The position numbers and the translations under genes are program-made. Shown piece by piece: positions 3,996 to 14,645 of a stretch of DNA of 64,000 nt. Source of the DNA: Pseudobdellovibrionaceae bacterium (lineage in GTDB: Bacteria > Bdellovibrionota > Bdellovibrionia > Bdellovibrionales > Bdellovibrionaceae); contig JALHMX010000002.1 of NCBI GenBank assembly GCA_022843825.1, forward strand, positions 62,001 to 126,000. Direction: 5' to 3'. Under the pieces are notes generated by a model. The model was not told the DNA's origin. It searched no databases and saw only the letters and a list, made by a program, of their open reading frames with translations. Each line of letters opens with the position of its first letter. Position 1 is the first letter of the stretch.

Positions 3996-4013
3996 ATGGT
4001 TAGTCCAATACTT

Positions 4014-4616
4014 ATGAAGTTAAAAATTACGATCATCTTTTTATTGAGTCTTTTCGCTTTATTTTACTTTAAAGACTACTTTATGATTCGACATGCGGCT
4101 CCAGTAAGACAACTGGCACCTCGCACAGCAGAGGTCGCATTAGAGCGTTTTCAGAATAGTTTACCTGAGCTTAGTAACTACGATGGCGGTGCTATTAATG
4201 TGGATAAGGCGGAAGCGTTGCTGAAAGATAAAAATGTTATACGAGTTTTTCACTTTTGGGCATCATGGTGTGACCCTTGCCTCAATGAACTTCCAGATTT
4301 TTTTAAATTTGTAGAAAGATCGAAAACATCCTTGAAGTCTGTAATTAGACCGTCTCACGATGGGGAAGCACAGAGCGCACAGTTTATTTTAGTTTCTTTG
4401 GATTTTGACCAAGAAGGTATAGATAAATTTTCTCAAATTTTTCCGAAGCTTAAGTCGACAGATTTTTTCCAAGTTTGGGATAAAAACAACTTTTTGTCTA
4501 AGGCCTTGGGAGTAAATAAGCTTCCCATGACATTAGTGGTGTATCCGGACGGTCGTGCGGTATCGTATGAAGGGGTCTTAGATTGGAAGATCTTTTTATT
4601 TTCACTGCGGGATTAA
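4014..4616 (+). CDS. Membrane-anchored thioredoxin-like protein (TlpA/ResA type)
   Basis: Predicted periplasmic thiol-disulfide oxidoreductase tethered by one N-terminal membrane helix (IIFLLSLFALFYF). The thioredoxin fold is shown by FHFWASWCDPCLNELPDF with a CxxC active site (WCDPC), and by the cis-Pro region KLPMTLVVYPDG near the C-terminus. Proteins of this type reduce c-type cytochrome apoproteins or other envelope disulfides; the substrate here is unknown. An upstream in-frame ATG at 3996 sits right on the terminator T run, so I prefer 4014. No gene partner is adjacent, and a 215-base gap follows. Confidence 0.8.
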   Translation: MKLKITIIFLLSLFALFYFKDYFMIRHAAPVRQLAPRTAEVALERFQNSLPELSNYDGGAINVDKAEALLKDKNVIRVFHFWASWCDPCLNELPDFFKFVERSKTSLKSVIRPSHDGEAQSAQFILVSLDFDQEGIDKFSQIFPKLKSTDFFQVWDKNNFLSKALGVNKLPMTLVVYPDGRAVSYEGVLDWKIFLFSLRD

Positions 4617-4714: not shown

Positions 4715-4831
4715 GCTTTACGCGACATGTAAAATAAATTATGTTCGATTTTTCGCTATTACGTACTTTGGTCCTGTTATATCGTTTATCTGGTTTGATT
4801 AAAAAAACATAAATTAATGGGGGGATATAAA

Positions 4832-5533
4832 ATGGATTTCATAACTAGCGTTTCTCAAGCATTTACACAAGGTGGTATATGGATGTACGCCATCCTGGCG
4901 ATTCAATTAGTATCAATTGCGGTAATAATTGAAAGATCAATTGTGTTGTATGGAAAAAAGAAAATTACACAAACAGCTACTGCACTAAAGTTTGAAGATG
5001 ATATCCGCCGCGGAGAAATAGATGCTGTTATTAATAAGGCACACAATTTATCAAACACTGAGCCTATTGCTAAGGCTATTTTAGCTGGTGCCCAGTCCGC
5101 TAAGTTTTTTGGCGGTAAAGAAGAGATTCAGGCTAAGATGGATGAAGTTTTATTGCATGAAAATGCTTTGCTCGATCGTCGTGTAGGCTACTTATCAATG
5201 CACGGCAACGTTGCAACCTTGTTGGGACTATTGGGTACTATTACAGGTATGATCAAATCATTTGCGGCAGTTTCGTTTGCTGATCCTTCTGCAAAAGCAG
5301 CCCTTTTGGCATCAGGTATTGCGGAAGCCATGCAATCCACGGTGTATGGTTTAGTTACAGCTATTCCAGCTTTGATTGCTTATGCGGTATTGTCGAATCG
5401 TGCAAATTTATTGGCTGAAGATTTAAACCAAGGCGCTTTAAAAGTTTTCAACTGGTTGTCATACAATTATGAAAATGTGGGCTTTAAAACAATTAAAAAA
5501 ACCACGAAAACTGCTAACGAGATTAATGCGTAA
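4832..5533 (+). CDS. MotA/TolQ/ExbB-family proton channel subunit (AglR-like)
   Basis: Inner-membrane ion-channel subunit of a Tol/Exb/Agl-type motor. Three membrane helices are visible: residues about 13-31 (start-adjusted), a central one with ATLLGLLGTITGMIKSF, and a third around STVYGLVTAIPALIAYAV. The latter two carry the family signature Gly/Thr residues lining the channel. The upstream ATG at 4817 would swallow the GGGGGA ribosome site; that site is spaced correctly for ATG 4832, so I chose 4832. The gene heads an operon with two ExbD/TolR genes, the same 1:2 arrangement as Myxococcus aglR-aglQ-aglS, whose proteins drive gliding. Assignment to gliding is inferred from the downstream genes. 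Confidence 0.88.
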   Translation: MDFITSVSQAFTQGGIWMYAILAIQLVSIAVIIERSIVLYGKKKITQTATALKFEDDIRRGEIDAVINKAHNLSNTEPIAKAILAGAQSAKFFGGKEEIQAKMDEVLLHENALLDRRVGYLSMHGNVATLLGLLGTITGMIKSFAAVSFADPSAKAALLASGIAEAMQSTVYGLVTAIPALIAYAVLSNRANLLAEDLNQGALKVFNWLSYNYENVGFKTIKKTTKTANEINA

Positions 5534-5572: not shown

Positions 5573-6025
5573 ATGAAAAAAAAGAAAATATTGGATTTTG
5601 AATTAAACCTTATTCCGTTTATTAACTTACTTTCGACTTGTATCTGCTTCTTATTGGTTACAGCAGTATGGGTACATATAGGATCATTAAGTGTAAAACA
5701 AGCGGTTGGAGGACAGCCCGCTTCGGAAACTGAAAAGAAAGCCACGGCGTGGATTTTTATAGAAAAAGATGGAGCAGTTGTTTTCGATGTTAGAGATAGT
5801 CGAACCTTAGAAGCAAAGATGCGTAAGTCCACAGTTCCTGCAAAAGAAGGAAAAATGGATTTGGAAACAGTGACTAAGCTGACTCAAGATTTGAAGCAAG
5901 TTGACCCTACTTTAAGAACTGCTCTTATCCAACCAAAGGCAGAGACGAGCTACGAAGACATTATAGACCTTATGGACACTGTTAAAAGAGCAGGTTTAGG
6001 AGATCTTGGCGTAGTTCCATTATAA
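5573..6025 (+). CDS. ExbD/TolR-family protein, variant with Asn at the proton-site Asp
   Basis: Single-pass inner-membrane partner of the TolQ-like channel with a periplasmic C-terminal domain (150 residues). The basic N-terminus leads into the helix LNLIPFINLLSTCICFLLV. In ExbD/TolR the equivalent motif is TPFID, where the Asp carries protons; here that position is Asn18 (codon AAC). The periplasmic part ends with the usual YEDIIDLMDTVKRAGLGDLGVV. The gene lies 39 bases after the TolQ-like gene and 14 before a second ExbD copy that keeps the Asp. It is probably a structural half of a heterodimeric rotor. Confidence 0.85.
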   Translation: MKKKKILDFELNLIPFINLLSTCICFLLVTAVWVHIGSLSVKQAVGGQPASETEKKATAWIFIEKDGAVVFDVRDSRTLEAKMRKSTVPAKEGKMDLETVTKLTQDLKQVDPTLRTALIQPKAETSYEDIIDLMDTVKRAGLGDLGVVPL

Positions 6026-6039
6026 TTTAAGGAGTTGCC

Positions 6040-6540
6040 ATGTTAACAAGAAGTGTATTATCGCAAACAGCTTTAACATCAGAGTTAGGGTCTCAGTCAA
6101 TACTAAATCCTAAGGACGACAAATCGAAACGAAGCTTGATCGCACCTCTTTTGCTTACAGCATTGATTGATGCGTTTTCTATTTTAGTGATATTTCTTTT
6201 AATTAATTTTTCCAGCACCGGAGAGATTCTTTTTATTAGCAAAGGTGTTCAGCTGCCAAATGCAAGCTCAACTGATGTATTAGAGAGAAACACAGTAGTA
6301 AAGTATGAGTCCGGCAAGTTTTATATTGATGATAAAGAGTTGACCGATCAGAACGGTTTAATTCAAGAGTTATTGGTTGTAAGAAAGCAGTGGGCAGAAA
6401 CGAATTCTGGTGAGGAATTCCCAGGAATTGTGACAATACAGGCAGATAAAGGAACTAAATATGAAAGCTTAAACTCGATCGTGTTAGCAATGGCTCACGC
6501 GGGGTTCGGGGAAATTCGTTTTGCGGTAATTCCTAAATAG
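6040..6540 (+). CDS. ExbD/TolR-family protein, Asp-retaining copy
   Basis: Second TolR-like subunit, 166 residues. An unusual cytosolic N-terminus of about 30 residues precedes the membrane helix LTALIDAFSILVIFLLI, whose Asp44 matches the essential TolR/ExbD aspartate. The periplasmic domain ends ESLNSIVLAMAHAGFGEIRFAV, a standard ExbD ending. With the preceding Asn variant and the TolQ-like subunit it forms a three-gene motor cassette. An AAGGAG ribosome site precedes the ATG. The closest known logic is AglS/AglQ of Myxococcus. Confidence 0.87.
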   Translation: MLTRSVLSQTALTSELGSQSILNPKDDKSKRSLIAPLLLTALIDAFSILVIFLLINFSSTGEILFISKGVQLPNASSTDVLERNTVVKYESGKFYIDDKELTDQNGLIQELLVVRKQWAETNSGEEFPGIVTIQADKGTKYESLNSIVLAMAHAGFGEIRFAVIPK

Positions 6541-9600: not shown

Positions 9601-9646
9601 CGACTTAAAAACTGATCGCGAAGTTGATGCTAAAGGAGTGCAATAA
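6608..9646 (+). CDS. Large exported TPR-repeat protein of the motor operon (GltE/AglT-like role)
   Basis: A 1012-residue, all-helical exported protein. Residues 1-28 are a signal peptide (hydrophobic LFQVTLLLIVAAA, cleavage probably after AHVHA). TPR-type repeats are clear at about 95-250 (KALQYYHEALPKVGE, AEAFLSIAEMHFKKSDWKQA, YAMYRLGWAEYNLGQ) and again near 310-330. Later parts are degenerate helical hairpins with many Lys/Glu. A CKACP motif lies before the first repeat. TPR proteins of Glt/Agl gliding systems bridge the inner-membrane motor to outer-membrane parts, and this is the inferred role. The GAGGGG ribosome site is strong. Its stop overlaps the next ATG (TAATG). Confidence 0.75.
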   Translation: MNQLIRKTTVALFQVTLLLIVAAAHVHADKAPDNNLDVNRNYLIDKLNRVVTNLAPSDPSKNGIILRLADLLSDRARQTTMLKVDGGCKACPSPEADRKKALQYYHEALPKVGEANKAKVMVQMGHLNQLLGNQAGATELYTRITNESSDPVARAEAFLSIAEMHFKKSDWKQAQSFYEKSIAAGNADSKGYAMYRLGWAEYNLGQINSAKERFLTVLKTPSLLSKNSSNQNVVDAGFHEQVARDYAIICGAGFHESDLKNIYDYSPEKKRLDNLFAVSSELGRTAKRKEALIAWNFFYQNQPQPQERAVAKAHLGTVNLQLGQNAEALKDFNEAYSLIVDKKTQFPNETEDVRRLIKSSIITWNQAEKKKPSPELLEAYQGYLSNFGFEKEMSQWAVQIAGELNKWETAWTIHQQATENVATGKNAKVDLENHLLLGVELGESSKNSTVLAQAQKEYLARSQSKTKYWEVFYQQTYAGYEKAENEDFLKSLSAVVMAKDAPLDLRVKSGDLYLDYLASKKRDAEIEVQARVFHKTLTGIKGYQSDWAKIAEKSVLNQVAQAVQDNKLDQAWTKIQDFEIKSADTKDVVTYYKNKTIIAEKRNDIVSALAAAKSMNALAVLDKEDKIFAQAKMAYYSDLRMDFKSAKTLTEQLPESVLPADKKNLKLAMYSDLLGQDSATYLKKFVDVSQDQKSKEVAVLEIIKKTPGAAVDVEIKKQEKNISKSYETLGQLAAISYLANGNKSYGLQMAQKNPEVQKTPQGNMIINDQKLTALGAFGDEIQKLSLDSDITKKDFQKKLARDMQARAKALNKLDELAADAIKTKDWTLQVLSLSLIARESERFYTEILSLPMPDGLTPEEQGEYMRLLGERAQPYKTKAEQALAKANEFLDDSTWVAQLGKKLSGPYAVIAEREKNQLLKVADEKNKSKLMGLAGTTAVAKKDVAATESRAIAVADIETAKADVKNEPFNVSKIQTLKDMESKNGNLAMVQYLEGRINDLKTDREVDAKGVQ

Positions 9647-9915
9647 TGAAAACATTTTTAGTGGTCTTGCTTTTTGGATTAAGCTTGATGGCGGCAGCGC
9701 CTGAGACTATTGACACTAAAGAAACAACCAAAGCCACAGTAAGTAAGTCAGGGACTGGTCGAAGTCACAATTTTGAAGACTTACTGGTTGGTGGTAAATA
9801 TCATTTTGCTGATGAAGCTGTATCAACAGTCGAGGCGGACAAGGTGTTTGATTCATTAATTGGTGTACGGACAGATTTTAAAGATCGCTTAGAAGAGTCG
9901 GCCTCAAACAAATAG
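9646..9915 (+). CDS. Small exported protein, motor operon
   Basis: An 89-residue protein with an N-terminal signal peptide (FLVVLLFGLSLMAAA, cleavage likely near residue 18-20). The mature part is hydrophilic and has no recognised domain. It overlaps the stop of the TPR gene by one base and lies 18 bases before the AgmX-like gene, so it is clearly co-transcribed and probably an accessory periplasmic factor. The ATG sits on a Shine-Dalgarno sequence (AAGGAG) within the previous reading frame. Confidence 0.7.
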   Translation: MKTFLVVLLFGLSLMAAAPETIDTKETTKATVSKSGTGRSHNFEDLLVGGKYHFADEAVSTVEADKVFDSLIGVRTDFKDRLEESASNK

Positions 9916-9933: not shown

Positions 9934-11088
9934 ATGGAAAAAAACTTAGTCCTGGAAGACAACAAAGGTAAGGTAGTTCGCGTTTTTAACTGGTCGGGCG
10001 ATAAAGCCACAGTTATTCGCAGAGAAGATACTAAACGACTGGAAGTCGTGGAAAACCTTGATTTTTACTTTGATAACAAGATCGACTTTGTTGAACTTGG
10101 TCAAGTCAGTGGAGACTCTTTTGAGTCACAGAACAAGAAGGCTGAGGACTTGGCTTTAGGTCAATATGGTCGCTTGGCACTTATTCCGAAAGTAGAATCT
10201 CATTACAAAAATGAAGAAGCTTCTGAAGAGAGAAAGCGTCTTTGGTTGCTGACATTATTATTGGTGATGTTTCTGTTTATTATTATTGGTGCTTTGATGA
10301 GATTGGCTCCTCAAACGGCAGTTCAGGCTGAGGAAGAATTTAGTCAGCAAGTCGTTAAAATTGTAAAAAACATCCAACAAGAAGTTCCTGTAGCGCAAAC
10401 GAAAGTAACTCAGATGCGCGAAGTAGAGCCTACGCAAGCGAAAGTTTCTCCATCAAAAATTGCAGGACTTAAGCGTATGGGGGCCCTATCAGTTTTAGGA
10501 AGTTTAAATAGCGGTAAAAATAAAGGTGGCTTAGATATTTCTGCTGCGCAAAGTTCTGCTGGCCCGGGAATGGGCGGAGGGACTGAGGGCTCCGGCGGAG
10601 TACAAACGTCACTTTATGCTAAAGGTATTACCAGTGCTGCTTTAGGTTCGGGGAATAATGTTAATGGTGGCGGTGGCTACGGAACAAAAGGTAAAGGCGG
10701 CGGTCAGGCGGGTTACGGAAAGTTGGCATTAACGGGATCTACTGGCGCGACTCCAATGCCACTAGGACATGAAGCTGACGTGGCGCAAGGATTAGATCGT
10801 GATCAGATTGCAGCAGTGATCAATCGTAATATCGGACAGGTCACATATTGCTACGAGCAAGGATTAAAAGATTCGCCAGGAATTCAAGGCAGAATTGCAA
10901 TAGCATTTGTGATTGGTGGAACGGGAAGTGTTAAATCGGCCCATGTGGATTCCAGTTCATTGAATTCAAAGACAGTAGAAGACTGTATAGTGATGAGATT
11001 AAAAACGTGGAAGTTCCCAGTACCAGAGGGCGGCGTAGATGTTAATGTTAAATATCCATTTAAATTAGAAAGAACGGGGCAGGGGTAA
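9934..11088 (+). CDS. AgmX/GltG-like trans-envelope protein with TonB-like C-terminal domain
   Basis: 384 residues in four parts: a cytosolic domain (1-100) of no recognised family; a membrane helix at about 103-122 (LWLLTLLLVMFLFIIIGAL); a periplasmic linker rich in Gly/Ser (about 190-265, GGGYGTKGKGGGQ); and a C-terminal AgmX/PglI domain (about 290-382) with the two conserved cysteines (VTYCYEQGL and VEDCIVMRL) and WKFPVPEGG. This architecture matches Myxococcus GltG/GltJ/AgmX, where the C-terminal domain carries motor force across the periplasm, as TonB does. Its place after the TolQ/TolR genes supports that role. Unlike GltJ, the N-terminus has no zinc-ribbon cysteines. Confidence 0.82.
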   Translation: MEKNLVLEDNKGKVVRVFNWSGDKATVIRREDTKRLEVVENLDFYFDNKIDFVELGQVSGDSFESQNKKAEDLALGQYGRLALIPKVESHYKNEEASEERKRLWLLTLLLVMFLFIIIGALMRLAPQTAVQAEEEFSQQVVKIVKNIQQEVPVAQTKVTQMREVEPTQAKVSPSKIAGLKRMGALSVLGSLNSGKNKGGLDISAAQSSAGPGMGGGTEGSGGVQTSLYAKGITSAALGSGNNVNGGGGYGTKGKGGGQAGYGKLALTGSTGATPMPLGHEADVAQGLDRDQIAAVINRNIGQVTYCYEQGLKDSPGIQGRIAIAFVIGGTGSVKSAHVDSSSLNSKTVEDCIVMRLKTWKFPVPEGGVDVNVKYPFKLERTGQG

Positions 11089-11089
11089 T

Positions 11090-12274
11090 ATGAATAAAAG
11101 TATTTTCACCATCGGATTGTTAAGTGCATTATTTTTTGTAGGATGTACTGGTTTTGATCATGATCCATTAAAGGGTAAACCTGCGCCAATCCAAAATGCG
11201 AAGCCGCCGGATAATAAACCTTCGCCAGAGCGCCCATTTCCAGTAGATAGTGTTAAAATAGTTAACGCAGATGGGGTAGATCTGGCGGGAGAGATTGTTA
11301 CCTATCAAGAGGGGGAGACTCAGACGATTCCGTTGAAAGTGAAAAGTTATCTTTCTGGATACTCTTACACTTTGACCGCTTTGAATCTTGAAGAGTTTAA
11401 AGGAGCAGTTTTTGATTCTAAAACAGGTCAGTTTACATGGACCCCAGAAGTGGGTATCGTAACTAACGCAGCAGGGATCGAAAAATTTATTTTAAGCGTG
11501 TGGTTAGTAGCTGCACCCAATGACTCAACTGTTGGTAAAGCAACATTGTCGGGATCTTTAGATCTACATATTTGGGTTCAAAATAGAGCTAGTCGTCCAG
11601 TCGTTAAAAAGATTGAGTATGCCCCGGGATCACCTAATCAGGTGTTTTTTGAAGAGGGTACCAGCAGAAATCTAGTTGTTACGGTAGAAGATTTAAAAAG
11701 TCCGGCAGGAGGAACAACTAAAGCTGTTCTAAAGTTTGAAGGAAAATTAGGGGAGTACACACGAGTTACTTCGACGCCGCGACCAATACCGAATACTAAA
11801 ACATGGAATTTTAATATCAGAATCGACTTGGTCGGAGCTGACCTAACTAAAAGTGTGACCGATGCTTCCTTACAAGTATTTGCTGTAAATGCTGAAGGGC
11901 AAACTTCTGTTCCTTATCCAAGTTTAGATTTCACTATATTGACACAATTTGGAGCACCAAGAACGACTTTTCCTTTGTATCATGAACTTAAGTCAGGCGT
12001 AGAGAACGTGGTTCCATTTATTATTTACGATTCGAATCACGAAGCTGTGTTAACAGTTGTTGATCACGTTAATTTGCCTTTTGGAGCACAAGTGACCTGT
12101 GAAACGGTTCGACGCCCATTTCAACAGTGTGTTTTTGTGTGGACTCCATCTGCCAATGACGAAGGTCGACTTCTTAGAACAGATTTAAAAATTGAAATGC
12201 GAAATATGAGCCCGATTGATATGCGCGTTGTTCAGGTTAATGAATCTATTTATTACAAAGTAATTGCTCCGTAA
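11090..12274 (+). CDS. Lipoprotein with Ig/cadherin-like repeats, motor operon
   Basis: 394-residue exported protein with a lipoprotein signal (hydrophobic stretch then FVGC, lipid Cys at residue 19). A Pro-rich linker follows (KGKPAPIQNAKPPDN). The mature part is beta-rich, with short FTWTPEVG- and FVWTPSAND-type motifs typical of putative Ig-fold (He_PIG/cadherin-like) domains, so I expect two or three such domains. It starts one base after the AgmX-like gene. Likely anchored in the outer membrane, it may dock the trans-envelope arm or contact surfaces; the partner is unknown. Confidence 0.68.
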   Translation: MNKSIFTIGLLSALFFVGCTGFDHDPLKGKPAPIQNAKPPDNKPSPERPFPVDSVKIVNADGVDLAGEIVTYQEGETQTIPLKVKSYLSGYSYTLTALNLEEFKGAVFDSKTGQFTWTPEVGIVTNAAGIEKFILSVWLVAAPNDSTVGKATLSGSLDLHIWVQNRASRPVVKKIEYAPGSPNQVFFEEGTSRNLVVTVEDLKSPAGGTTKAVLKFEGKLGEYTRVTSTPRPIPNTKTWNFNIRIDLVGADLTKSVTDASLQVFAVNAEGQTSVPYPSLDFTILTQFGAPRTTFPLYHELKSGVENVVPFIIYDSNHEAVLTVVDHVNLPFGAQVTCETVRRPFQQCVFVWTPSANDEGRLLRTDLKIEMRNMSPIDMRVVQVNESIYYKVIAP

Positions 12275-12297: not shown

Positions 12298-13053
12298 ATG
12301 AAAAAAAATAAAATTATATACCTTGCTTCAGTTTTAATAGTTGCGATGGCTCAAGCTGCAACGGCTGCAACGGCAACAAAAGTCTCTCAGAGTGAGCAGA
12401 AAATTGAGCAAGAGTTCGATGGCTTGGGCGGTAATGAAGTTTTGTTGGAAAAAGCGCGCGCTTTAAATCCTGAAGTGCATACCACTGTGGTTCAAAATCG
12501 TATGGTTGATCGCACGATGAGATTTGAGTTGTCAGGTGATTACGCGAACTCATTTGGTGGAGATACTTATATTAAAACCGGTACCTTTTCAGTAAATGGA
12601 CGTTTTCACTTCACCAATCGTTGGGCTTTAGGGGCTAAATATGGAATGTCATTTAATAAGCTGACGAATGAAGGCAACAAGATGGTTGATGATGCCTATG
12701 CAGATTATCTAGCTAATCCGCTGTCGTCGACAGCCCCAGTGCCAGATATAGATTACCCTAAAGGATTAACATTAGGTTATCTGGAGTTTTATCCACTTTA
12801 TGGAAAAATGAGTTGGCTGGGTAAAGGCGTTTCACATTTTGATGTGTATGCACAGTTAGGATACGGAACAGTGGATTTAGATTCAGGAAATACTCCGGCA
12901 CTTTCTGGTGCCTTAGGCGTTGGTATTTGGGGAACCGAGCATTTAACAACTCGTTTGGAAATTTCTTATTTAGATTATACGGCTCAGTATTATACAGGAG
13001 AACTAAAGCAGGGGGTAACTTCAGCGTCAGTTCAAGTGGGATGGTTATTCTAA
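12298..13053 (+). CDS. Outer-membrane beta-barrel protein, motor operon
   Basis: 251 residues with a signal peptide (cleavage around AQAATA, residues 20-26). The mature sequence alternates hydrophobic and polar residues with Gly/Tyr/Trp-rich strands (RFELSGDYANSFGG, RWALGAKYGMSF, LEISYLDYTAQYY) and ends in Phe (SVQVGWLF), the classic C-terminal signal of an outer-membrane barrel. About eight strands are expected. Its stop overlaps the start of the next gene (TAATG), so the two are coupled. Gliding operons of Myxococcus also contain predicted outer-membrane barrels (GltA/GltB class), and the role here is inferred from that. Confidence 0.78.
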   Translation: MKKNKIIYLASVLIVAMAQAATAATATKVSQSEQKIEQEFDGLGGNEVLLEKARALNPEVHTTVVQNRMVDRTMRFELSGDYANSFGGDTYIKTGTFSVNGRFHFTNRWALGAKYGMSFNKLTNEGNKMVDDAYADYLANPLSSTAPVPDIDYPKGLTLGYLEFYPLYGKMSWLGKGVSHFDVYAQLGYGTVDLDSGNTPALSGALGVGIWGTEHLTTRLEISYLDYTAQYYTGELKQGVTSASVQVGWLF

Positions 13054-14645
13054 TGAAAAAAACTTTAATTTTGACATTGATATCTATTGGTTTTGCGGTT
13101 CATGTTCAGGCTGCAGACCTAGAGTCATTAATCGAAGGTTCAAAAGCAGAAACTCCAGTGGCGGCGTCTCAGCAGACGCGTTTAAGTGCGGCAGTGGAAA
13201 GTCTTTTAAAAAGCACTACTCCGGCACAGAATGTATTTTTAAGACATGTAGAACGTGAAGATTGGAAGAAGGCGCTTATCGCGTGGGGGCCCGCTTTTAA
13301 TGGAACTTCTTTTGAAAGATCTGAAAACGCTAAAGCGTTGCATGCCTTAGCTATGTTTAAAACTGGCTTAGAAATTACAGCGATTGAAAAACTTTTTACG
13401 GCTGGCAATGCCAAAAACATTCACTCGGAAATTGTTCATACTTGGAAAGAAAATTTAAATGATAAAAACCCTGCGTGGGATGTCGCGCAAATTCAATGGA
13501 ACGATTCGTGGACCACGGTATTCGGCCGTGCCGCGGAAGTGCGCCATAAACTGAGTGCGATTAATTTGAAGACCAATGTGAATTATCTAAAAGATATGGC
13601 TTCAAAGCTTCCGGTTAATACCAAAGAGCGTGCGCTTGTTGATTGGCAGTTAGCCTTAAGTTACGCCTTGAATGATCAAGCCAGTGAAGCGGCTAAGATT
13701 ATTGGACAGTTGTTGAAAAACCAACAATCTCCTTATGGTGAAGATCTTGTAAATTTAACGGCAGGTCGTTTATTGTTTCAAAATGGATATTTTGATGCTG
13801 CAGCTAAGTATTATGAAAAAATTCCTAAAAAATCTGACTATTGGTTGGAGGGACAAGAAGAGTTGGCGTGGACGTATTTACGAAAAGGTGAAACTCAAAA
13901 CGCGGTGGCCGTAAGTAAGTCCTTAATGAACGCAGCCTTCGAAGGTTATTTAGGACCTGAGCCTTATTTTGTAGAAACGCTCGGTCATTTGAAAATTTGT
14001 GATTATACTAAAGTTATGGACGGTTTGAAGCAGTTTCCAAAGCGGTTTAAAAATCGAACTATCGAATTAGATCGACTAGCTAAAGGCACTAAATCAGATT
14101 TATTAGATAAGACCGTCAGTACACTGGGCACTAAACCGATGACCTGGGCCACGTTTGGCAAAGACATGAATGTTTTACCGCGTATGATGATTAAAGATTA
14201 CAAATTAATTCAGTTGGTGGAAGCTCAGAAAAAATTTGAAAAAGAATCTAAAATTGCAGACGCTGTCTATGCAGATGCATTAGCGCTAACGGGTTTACAA
14301 GGCACATTTCAGGCCATGAAAAATGGTTTAACTGAAAAGACAAGTAAAGCTCGATCAGCGGCGGCTCAAAGAATAAAAGAATTAGCTAAGAATGAAGTAT
14401 TAGAAGTTAAGAAAATTTTAGATAAACTTCACATTGTTGAAGCTGAACTTGTTCAGCAGGTTGAAGTGGCTGGGACAATCGCCAAAAATAGCACCGGCAT
14501 CGACCCCGCATTAAAGGTTGGAACAACAGGATCTAAAAAATCTGATGCTTTAGTCTTTGTCGCTGATTCGCAAGAAGTTTGGTTTGATGAAATATCTAAT
14601 TACAAAGTTGATGTGAAAAAAGGATGCCAAGGCATTAAGAGGTAG
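13053..14645 (+). CDS. Exported helical-repeat (TPR-like) protein, motor operon
   Basis: I start this gene at ATG 13053 (MKKTLILTLISIGFAVHVQA), a clean signal peptide overlapping the upstream stop. The longer frame from 12927 would be buried in the barrel gene. The 530-residue protein is mostly helical, with TPR-like hairpins near 175-290 (ALVDWQLALSYALNDQASEA, GRLLFQNGYFDAAAKYYEKI, EGQEELAWTYLRKGETQNAV) and a coiled-coil-like stretch near 415-480. It is probably periplasmic. Two bases separate it from the first VWA lipoprotein gene, so it stays in the motor operon. Confidence 0.75.
   Translation: MKKTLILTLISIGFAVHVQAADLESLIEGSKAETPVAASQQTRLSAAVESLLKSTTPAQNVFLRHVEREDWKKALIAWGPAFNGTSFERSENAKALHALAMFKTGLEITAIEKLFTAGNAKNIHSEIVHTWKENLNDKNPAWDVAQIQWNDSWTTVFGRAAEVRHKLSAINLKTNVNYLKDMASKLPVNTKERALVDWQLALSYALNDQASEAAKIIGQLLKNQQSPYGEDLVNLTAGRLLFQNGYFDAAAKYYEKIPKKSDYWLEGQEELAWTYLRKGETQNAVAVSKSLMNAAFEGYLGPEPYFVETLGHLKICDYTKVMDGLKQFPKRFKNRTIELDRLAKGTKSDLLDKTVSTLGTKPMTWATFGKDMNVLPRMMIKDYKLIQLVEAQKKFEKESKIADAVYADALALTGLQGTFQAMKNGLTEKTSKARSAAAQRIKELAKNEVLEVKKILDKLHIVEAELVQQVEVAGTIAKNSTGIDPALKVGTTGSKKSDALVFVADSQEVWFDEISNYKVDVKKGCQGIKR

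Follow-up and report, generated by a model that had tools for sequence, protein, structure and literature searches.

Asparagine at the channel aspartate position of one axle subunit in a predicted AglRQS-like motor of a Pseudobdellovibrionaceae bacterium, and recurrent absence of this aspartate from the same subunit in related motors

Models of the TolQR, ExbBD, MotAB and AglRQS motors assume two equivalent acidic residues per axle, which act in alternation. In the 5:2 motors TolQR and ExbBD, the axle is a single TolR or ExbD homodimer with two Asp. AglRQS of Myxococcus xanthus consists of one TolQ-like and two TolR-like proteins, together with glt-type proteins. Both of its TolR-like subunits, AglQ and AglS, have been described with the channel Asp, their heterodimerisation was left open (PMC9389320), and an AglQ-D28N motor is dead (PMC3858216). 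Among the papers searched, none treated AglQ/AglS heterodimers or a MotB with a single Asp. For Bdellovibrio, an arrangement of aglRQS with glt genes has been described by Luciano et al. (PMC3169522).

Here, we analysed a stretch of 64,000 nucleotides from contig JALHMX010000002.1 of a Pseudobdellovibrionaceae bacterium (hereafter the window), which encodes a predicted AglRQS-like proton motor with one ring gene (R), two different axle genes (Q and S) and a glt-like cargo cluster (Table 1). The first genes of the window, upstream of the motor operon, encode adenylate kinase, ribosomal proteins and the alpha subunit of RNA polymerase; between the ribosomal genes and this operon, a thioredoxin/TlpA-like protein was read by eye at positions 3996-4616. 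The motor genes follow in the order R-Q-S with two different TolR-like genes, as in AglRQS-type motors, and head the glt-like cluster. Association with glt-like genes is indicated by the GltG-like protein and by an OMP_myx_plus match above its cut-off, the CglF- and GltC-like matches being below theirs. These adjoining GltG-, GltC- and CglF-like genes are shared with the M. xanthus system, from which the window differs in holding motor and glt genes in one locus. The cluster matches the arrangement described for Bdellovibrio and is, by position, the orthologue of HD100 Bd2368-Bd2377. The orthologous HD100 locus lies at 2.28 Mb, and we take it to be the Bd2368-2377 operon named in PMC2797640. 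Ten ExbD-type matches were found in the genome in total, of which three tandem Q-S pairs account for six, ordinary ExbD proteins for three and a match below threshold for one.

Table 1 Features of the motor operon and the adjoining glt-like cluster, in window positions.
Feature	Position	Strand	Basis or remark
R, TolQ/ExbB/AglR-like ring subunit	4817..5533	+	PF01618 MotA_ExbB, 89.6 bits
R pore-helix stretch QSTVYGLV, residues 173-180, with S174 next to pore Thr175	5333..5356	+	window-specific changes
Q, first ExbD/TolR-like axle subunit, AglQ position, 150 aa	5573..6025	+	PF02472, 57.6 bits
Q Ile6 codon	5588..5590	+	His in other orthologues of 14-member alignment
Q Asn18 codon AAC, family Asp column	5624..5626	+	one transition from GAC
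S, second ExbD/TolR-like axle subunit, AglS position, 166 aa	6040..6540	+	PF02472, 54.0 bits
S Asp44 codon GAT	6169..6171	+	Asp in 186/186 related motors
Large TPR protein, 1012 residues	6608..9646	+	TPR families; possibly GltD/GltE-like, from gene order
Small secreted protein, CglF-like	9646..9915	+	NCBIfam NF033764, E 2e-4, below curated cut-off
GltG-like protein, TonB-like C-terminal domain	9934..11088	+	NCBIfam NF033760, E 5e-36; NF033768, 109.8 bits, cut-off 40
Cluster protein without Pfam or NCBIfam match	11090..12274	+	profile searches, Pfam and NCBIfam
Outer-membrane beta-barrel protein, GltA-like by family	12298..13053	+	TIGR04565 OMP_myx_plus, 76.9 bits, cut-off 60
GltC-like TPR protein	13050..14645	+	NCBIfam NF033756, E 9e-9, below cut-off

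Both Q and S scored above the curated PF02472 cut-off of 25.4 bits, and equivalog cut-offs for Tol-Pal and Ton energisers were missed (tolR, 29.9 against 127.3 bits; tolQ, 78.3 against 221 bits; exbB, 66.7 against 206 bits). The window motor thus resembles TolQR and ExbBD in fold, in its PF02472 and PF01618 domains, in the position of the PF[IL]D motif and in the pore Thr, whereas its axle would be built from two gene products with one Asp. The best fold match of the AlphaFold2 model of Q (pLDDT 76.5) was TolR 5by4, the models being monomers of moderate confidence with the Q:S interface outside their reach. By profile, Q belongs to the ExbD/TolR family but lacks its catalytic feature: at the position of the conserved Asp, close to where the single transmembrane helix begins, S carries Asp44 (motif LTALIDAFS) and Q carries Asn18 (LNLIPFINLLS).

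The initial annotation had placed N18 of a PFIN motif at the family Asp in the first ExbD-like protein and had seen Asp retained in the LID motif (D44) of the second, and both observations were confirmed. The profile of Q orthologues (elnliPfid) pairs with EINVTPFID of ExbD (7ajq, Asp25) and with EINIVPLLD of TolR (9ddm) at a gap-free site, and N18 also falls in one gap-free column when Q is aligned with the two further R-Q-S motors and the three ordinary ExbD proteins of this genome. With the motif free of gaps and the PDB profile alignment concordant, a misaligned column was ruled out. In contrast, the idea that the Asn might be conserved in Bdellovibrionota did not hold. A family-wide search of 66 genomes yielded 29 orthologues of window Q with sequence read, all of which carry Asp, including the nearest relatives, two same-genus proteins of 79-80% identity, so that a conserved Asn among close relatives was rejected. 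Scanning GTDB genomes by name returned the same two relatives, one a MAG of an uncultured Bdellovibrio and the other a Pseudobdellovibrionaceae MAG; each has Asp. No close orthologue of window Q was found in most of the same-genus genomes searched, and a candidate decayed Q remnant in genome G056 was rejected because a contig end cuts the gene. Asp-bearing motors use GAT or GAC codons, from the latter of which the window codon is one transition away. Because the nearest relatives carry Asp, N18 is, judged from these sequences, a local change private to this genome, and Asn18 alone could reflect decay or error.

As a private change, the Asn is of moderate interest in its own right; the valuable result is the recurrent loss of the Asp from Q only. 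Among 186 distinct related R-Q-S motors, the Q residue at the Asp column was Asp in 95, Ala in 71, Ser in 18, Gly in one and Asn in one (the window), while S carried Asp in all 186. A channel Asp in both Q and S, a feature of AglRQS, is missing from the window motor, as it is from 91 of the 186 related Q. When the tree is made from the R and S sequences without Q, the state of Q changes seven times, with at least five changes forced by well-supported branches, a count that leaves the direction (loss or regain) undecided. A paralogous class is represented in HD100 by Bd1473-1483; in each family genome read in which it occurs, its Q has Ala or Ser and its S has Asp. Nearly all family genomes retain this Asp-less paralogue, and absence of the Asp from Q thus agrees with retention over long periods. 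Outside the family, the Q residue of the Bd1473-1483 class is Asp in outgroup families, and other families have Ala, Ser or Gly. Window-like motors of distant Bdellovibrionota MAGs form a third set, with Ser at the Q Asp column, and the few Myxococcota and deltaproteobacterial loci seen had Asp in both subunits. In the window genome itself, a second motor on contig C16 combines Ala in Q with Asp in S.

The initial annotation had proposed a lopsided axle with only one acidic side. Although the window Asn is private, an axle in which one ExbD-like subunit is acidic and the other is not gains support, at the level of sequence comparison, from the Asp-less Q and invariably acidic S of the related motors. 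Losses from Q only in related predators suggest that one-acid motors are real and testable, and the repeated pattern hints at pairing of Q and S within one ring. It seems to us an evenly balanced proposition that Bdellovibrionota hold a natural class of 5:2-type motors with one channel Asp per axle, in which the first axle subunit repeatedly gave up its Asp, mostly with an Asp at position -6 and a ring hydroxyl, and the second never did; Bd1480 of HD100 would exemplify this first subunit, and the motor of the window would be a recent and partly developed example.

Several residues go with the missing Asp. In counts among the 186 motors, which are non-independent, Q position -6 (Asn in the family) was Asp in 84 of 91 Asp-less and 0 of 95 Asp-bearing Q, the R residue that immediately precedes the pore Thr carried a hydroxyl (Thr or Ser) in 89 of 91 motors with an Asp-less Q compared to 20 of 95 Asp-bearing motors, and S position -8 was acidic in no Asp-less motor but in 50 of 95 Asp-bearing ones. 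Independent-pair tests on the tree mostly gave two to four concordant and about zero discordant pairs, pointing in the same direction, below significance and based on few events. Both Thr of the ring-subunit pore pair are kept in window R (T141, T175) and in all 186 motors. The window shows part of the pattern: R has Ser174 beside pore Thr175, where near relatives have Ala or Cys, and S residue 36 (6145-6147), eight before the channel Asp, is Pro, where near relatives have Asp. Window Q retains Asn at -6: the motor shares the ring hydroxyl, and the relocated Asp is absent. Over the R pore helix, relatives read N-A/C-T-A-Y-G-L-I compared to QSTVYGLV in the window; the private changes by the pore Thr (N173Q, A/C174S, A176V and I180V) fall at otherwise invariant or conserved sites. 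In a model of the Ala class, position -6 was placed, with low confidence, just before the transmembrane helix, and it likely lies at the cytoplasmic mouth rather than mid-membrane, where an Asp may act as an exit-side relay or an electrostatic replacement. Lys at +4 was rejected as a replacement charge in the Ala class, as it is family-invariant but C, T, N or A in other Ala-type motors. An Asp at -6 was also read in the Q of the C16 motor (G000:C16:31987-32529; L011:11985-12530; HD100 counterpart, L293:844-1401). Among the Ser-type window-like motors of distant MAGs (L256, L257, L259, L260, L263, L268-L270, L273, L274, L279, L284, L287 and L291), it is present in some and absent in others.

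In the mechanism we propose, a single GAC-to-AAC transition would recently have removed the channel Asp of Q. Should Q and S pair within one ring, each axle would be left with a single titratable acid, Asp44 of S, and Q would be the structural and cell-wall-binding partner. The window would then be one instance of recurrent Q-only Asp loss in Bdellovibrionota, the older cases of which would usually have a replacement Asp six residues cytoplasm-ward in Q and an extra hydroxyl by the R pore Thr. Pairing of Q with S, a motor that still runs and the route of the protons are what we infer here, and we give an even chance to the window motor being such a recent loss with a working one-acid Q:S axle. 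The R-Q-S reading frames are intact, all cluster reading frames are full length, and comparison of R-Q-S with the nearest relative gave a dN of 0.14-0.25 with saturated dS. Intact genes, low dN against saturated dS and the retained S Asp and pore Thr all argue for a working one-acid motor, as do the gain of Ser174 in R and the loss of the S acid at -8, in parallel to other Asp-less motors. A pseudogene was likewise unsupported, given the intact frames and low dN; no branch dN/dS estimate was usable, since dS was saturated. Against a one-acid motor, the sequences reveal no past selection on the Asn, as two same-genus relatives hold Asp, the relocated Asp at -6 is absent from Q, R evolved faster than its sister (20-24 lineage-specific changes in the window compared to 8), as expected under relaxed constraint, and M. 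xanthus AglQ-D28N, an identical Asp-to-Asn exchange in the counterpart of Q, is paralysed though AglS is intact (PMC3858216).

Some of these observations would also fit the main alternative, which is less probable, namely that a motor of the Bd2368-2377 class is decaying here, with N18 disabling or weakening proton coupling and the genes still intact because the loss is recent or because ring and axle have a passive role. Decay would agree with the abolished motility and sporulation of M. xanthus AglQ-D28N (PMC3858216), with the faster R and an N18 unaccompanied by Asp at -6, as well as with the lack of a close orthologue of Q in most same-genus genomes searched and with the two further R-Q-S motors of the genome, which could take over. 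It is harder to reconcile with full-length reading frames throughout the cluster and low dN against saturated dS, with the retention of the S Asp and both R pore Thr, and with Q, which showed no clear acceleration (7 lineage-specific changes compared to 7, or 10 compared to 4).

An error of sequencing or assembly at N18, or a variant carried by few members of the population that was assembled, appears improbable: although N18 is a single transition seen in one assembly (33 contigs), the motor has further private changes at conserved pore-side sites (Q173, S174 and V176 in R; I6 in Q), which are unlike an isolated error, the frame and all neighbours are intact, and the Asp-less state recurs in related motors. 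Least probable, and cutting across the other readings, Q and S might form separate homodimeric motors, with an Asn-Q homodimer that is non-conducting, e.g. a peptidoglycan anchor, and an S homodimer working in R; AglQ/AglS pairing is open in the literature (PMC9389320) and S is always acidic, but heterodimers account no less well for the fixed R-Q-S order and for co-retention, and AglQ and AglS are each required for sporulation in M. xanthus (PMC3858216).

For the proposed one-acid Q:S axle, HD100 offers a point of comparison. Its Bd2368-2377 motor has Asp in both Q and S, and the paralogous Bd1473-Bd1483 motor has an Asp-less Q, in which Ala or Ser is accompanied by a new Asp at -6, in contrast to the window Asn without a new Asp. 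In this Ala-class locus, genes for a vWA-like protein and a PilZ protein precede R, Q and S. Because the PilZ gene is Bd1482 (PMC3271064) and aglR is Bd1481 (PMC2277423), the order PilZ-R-Q-S identifies Q of the Bd1473-1483 motor as Bd1480. Bd1480 has been used as a surface-induced, cGAMP-dependent gliding gene and called a proton-channel component (PMC9140294); this published gliding marker of Bdellovibrio, 'aglQ', thus encodes a protein without the usual proton-carrying Asp. Biofilm predation is reduced when a transposon interrupts the ring gene Bd1481 (PMC2277423), suggesting that the Bd1473-1483 motor works. If one-acid motors have indeed been retained for the age of a bacterial family, they would show that one acid suffices and would favour Q:S heterodimers, and each turn might take half as many protons. 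Because Bd1480 and the adjacent S gene are amenable to genetics, Q:S pairing and proton count can be tested directly. Directly upstream of R, the Bd1473-1483 class encodes a protein with GYF_2 and PilZ domains (L011:13316-13921; L293:2127-2747), which suggests c-di-GMP control of motors of this class.
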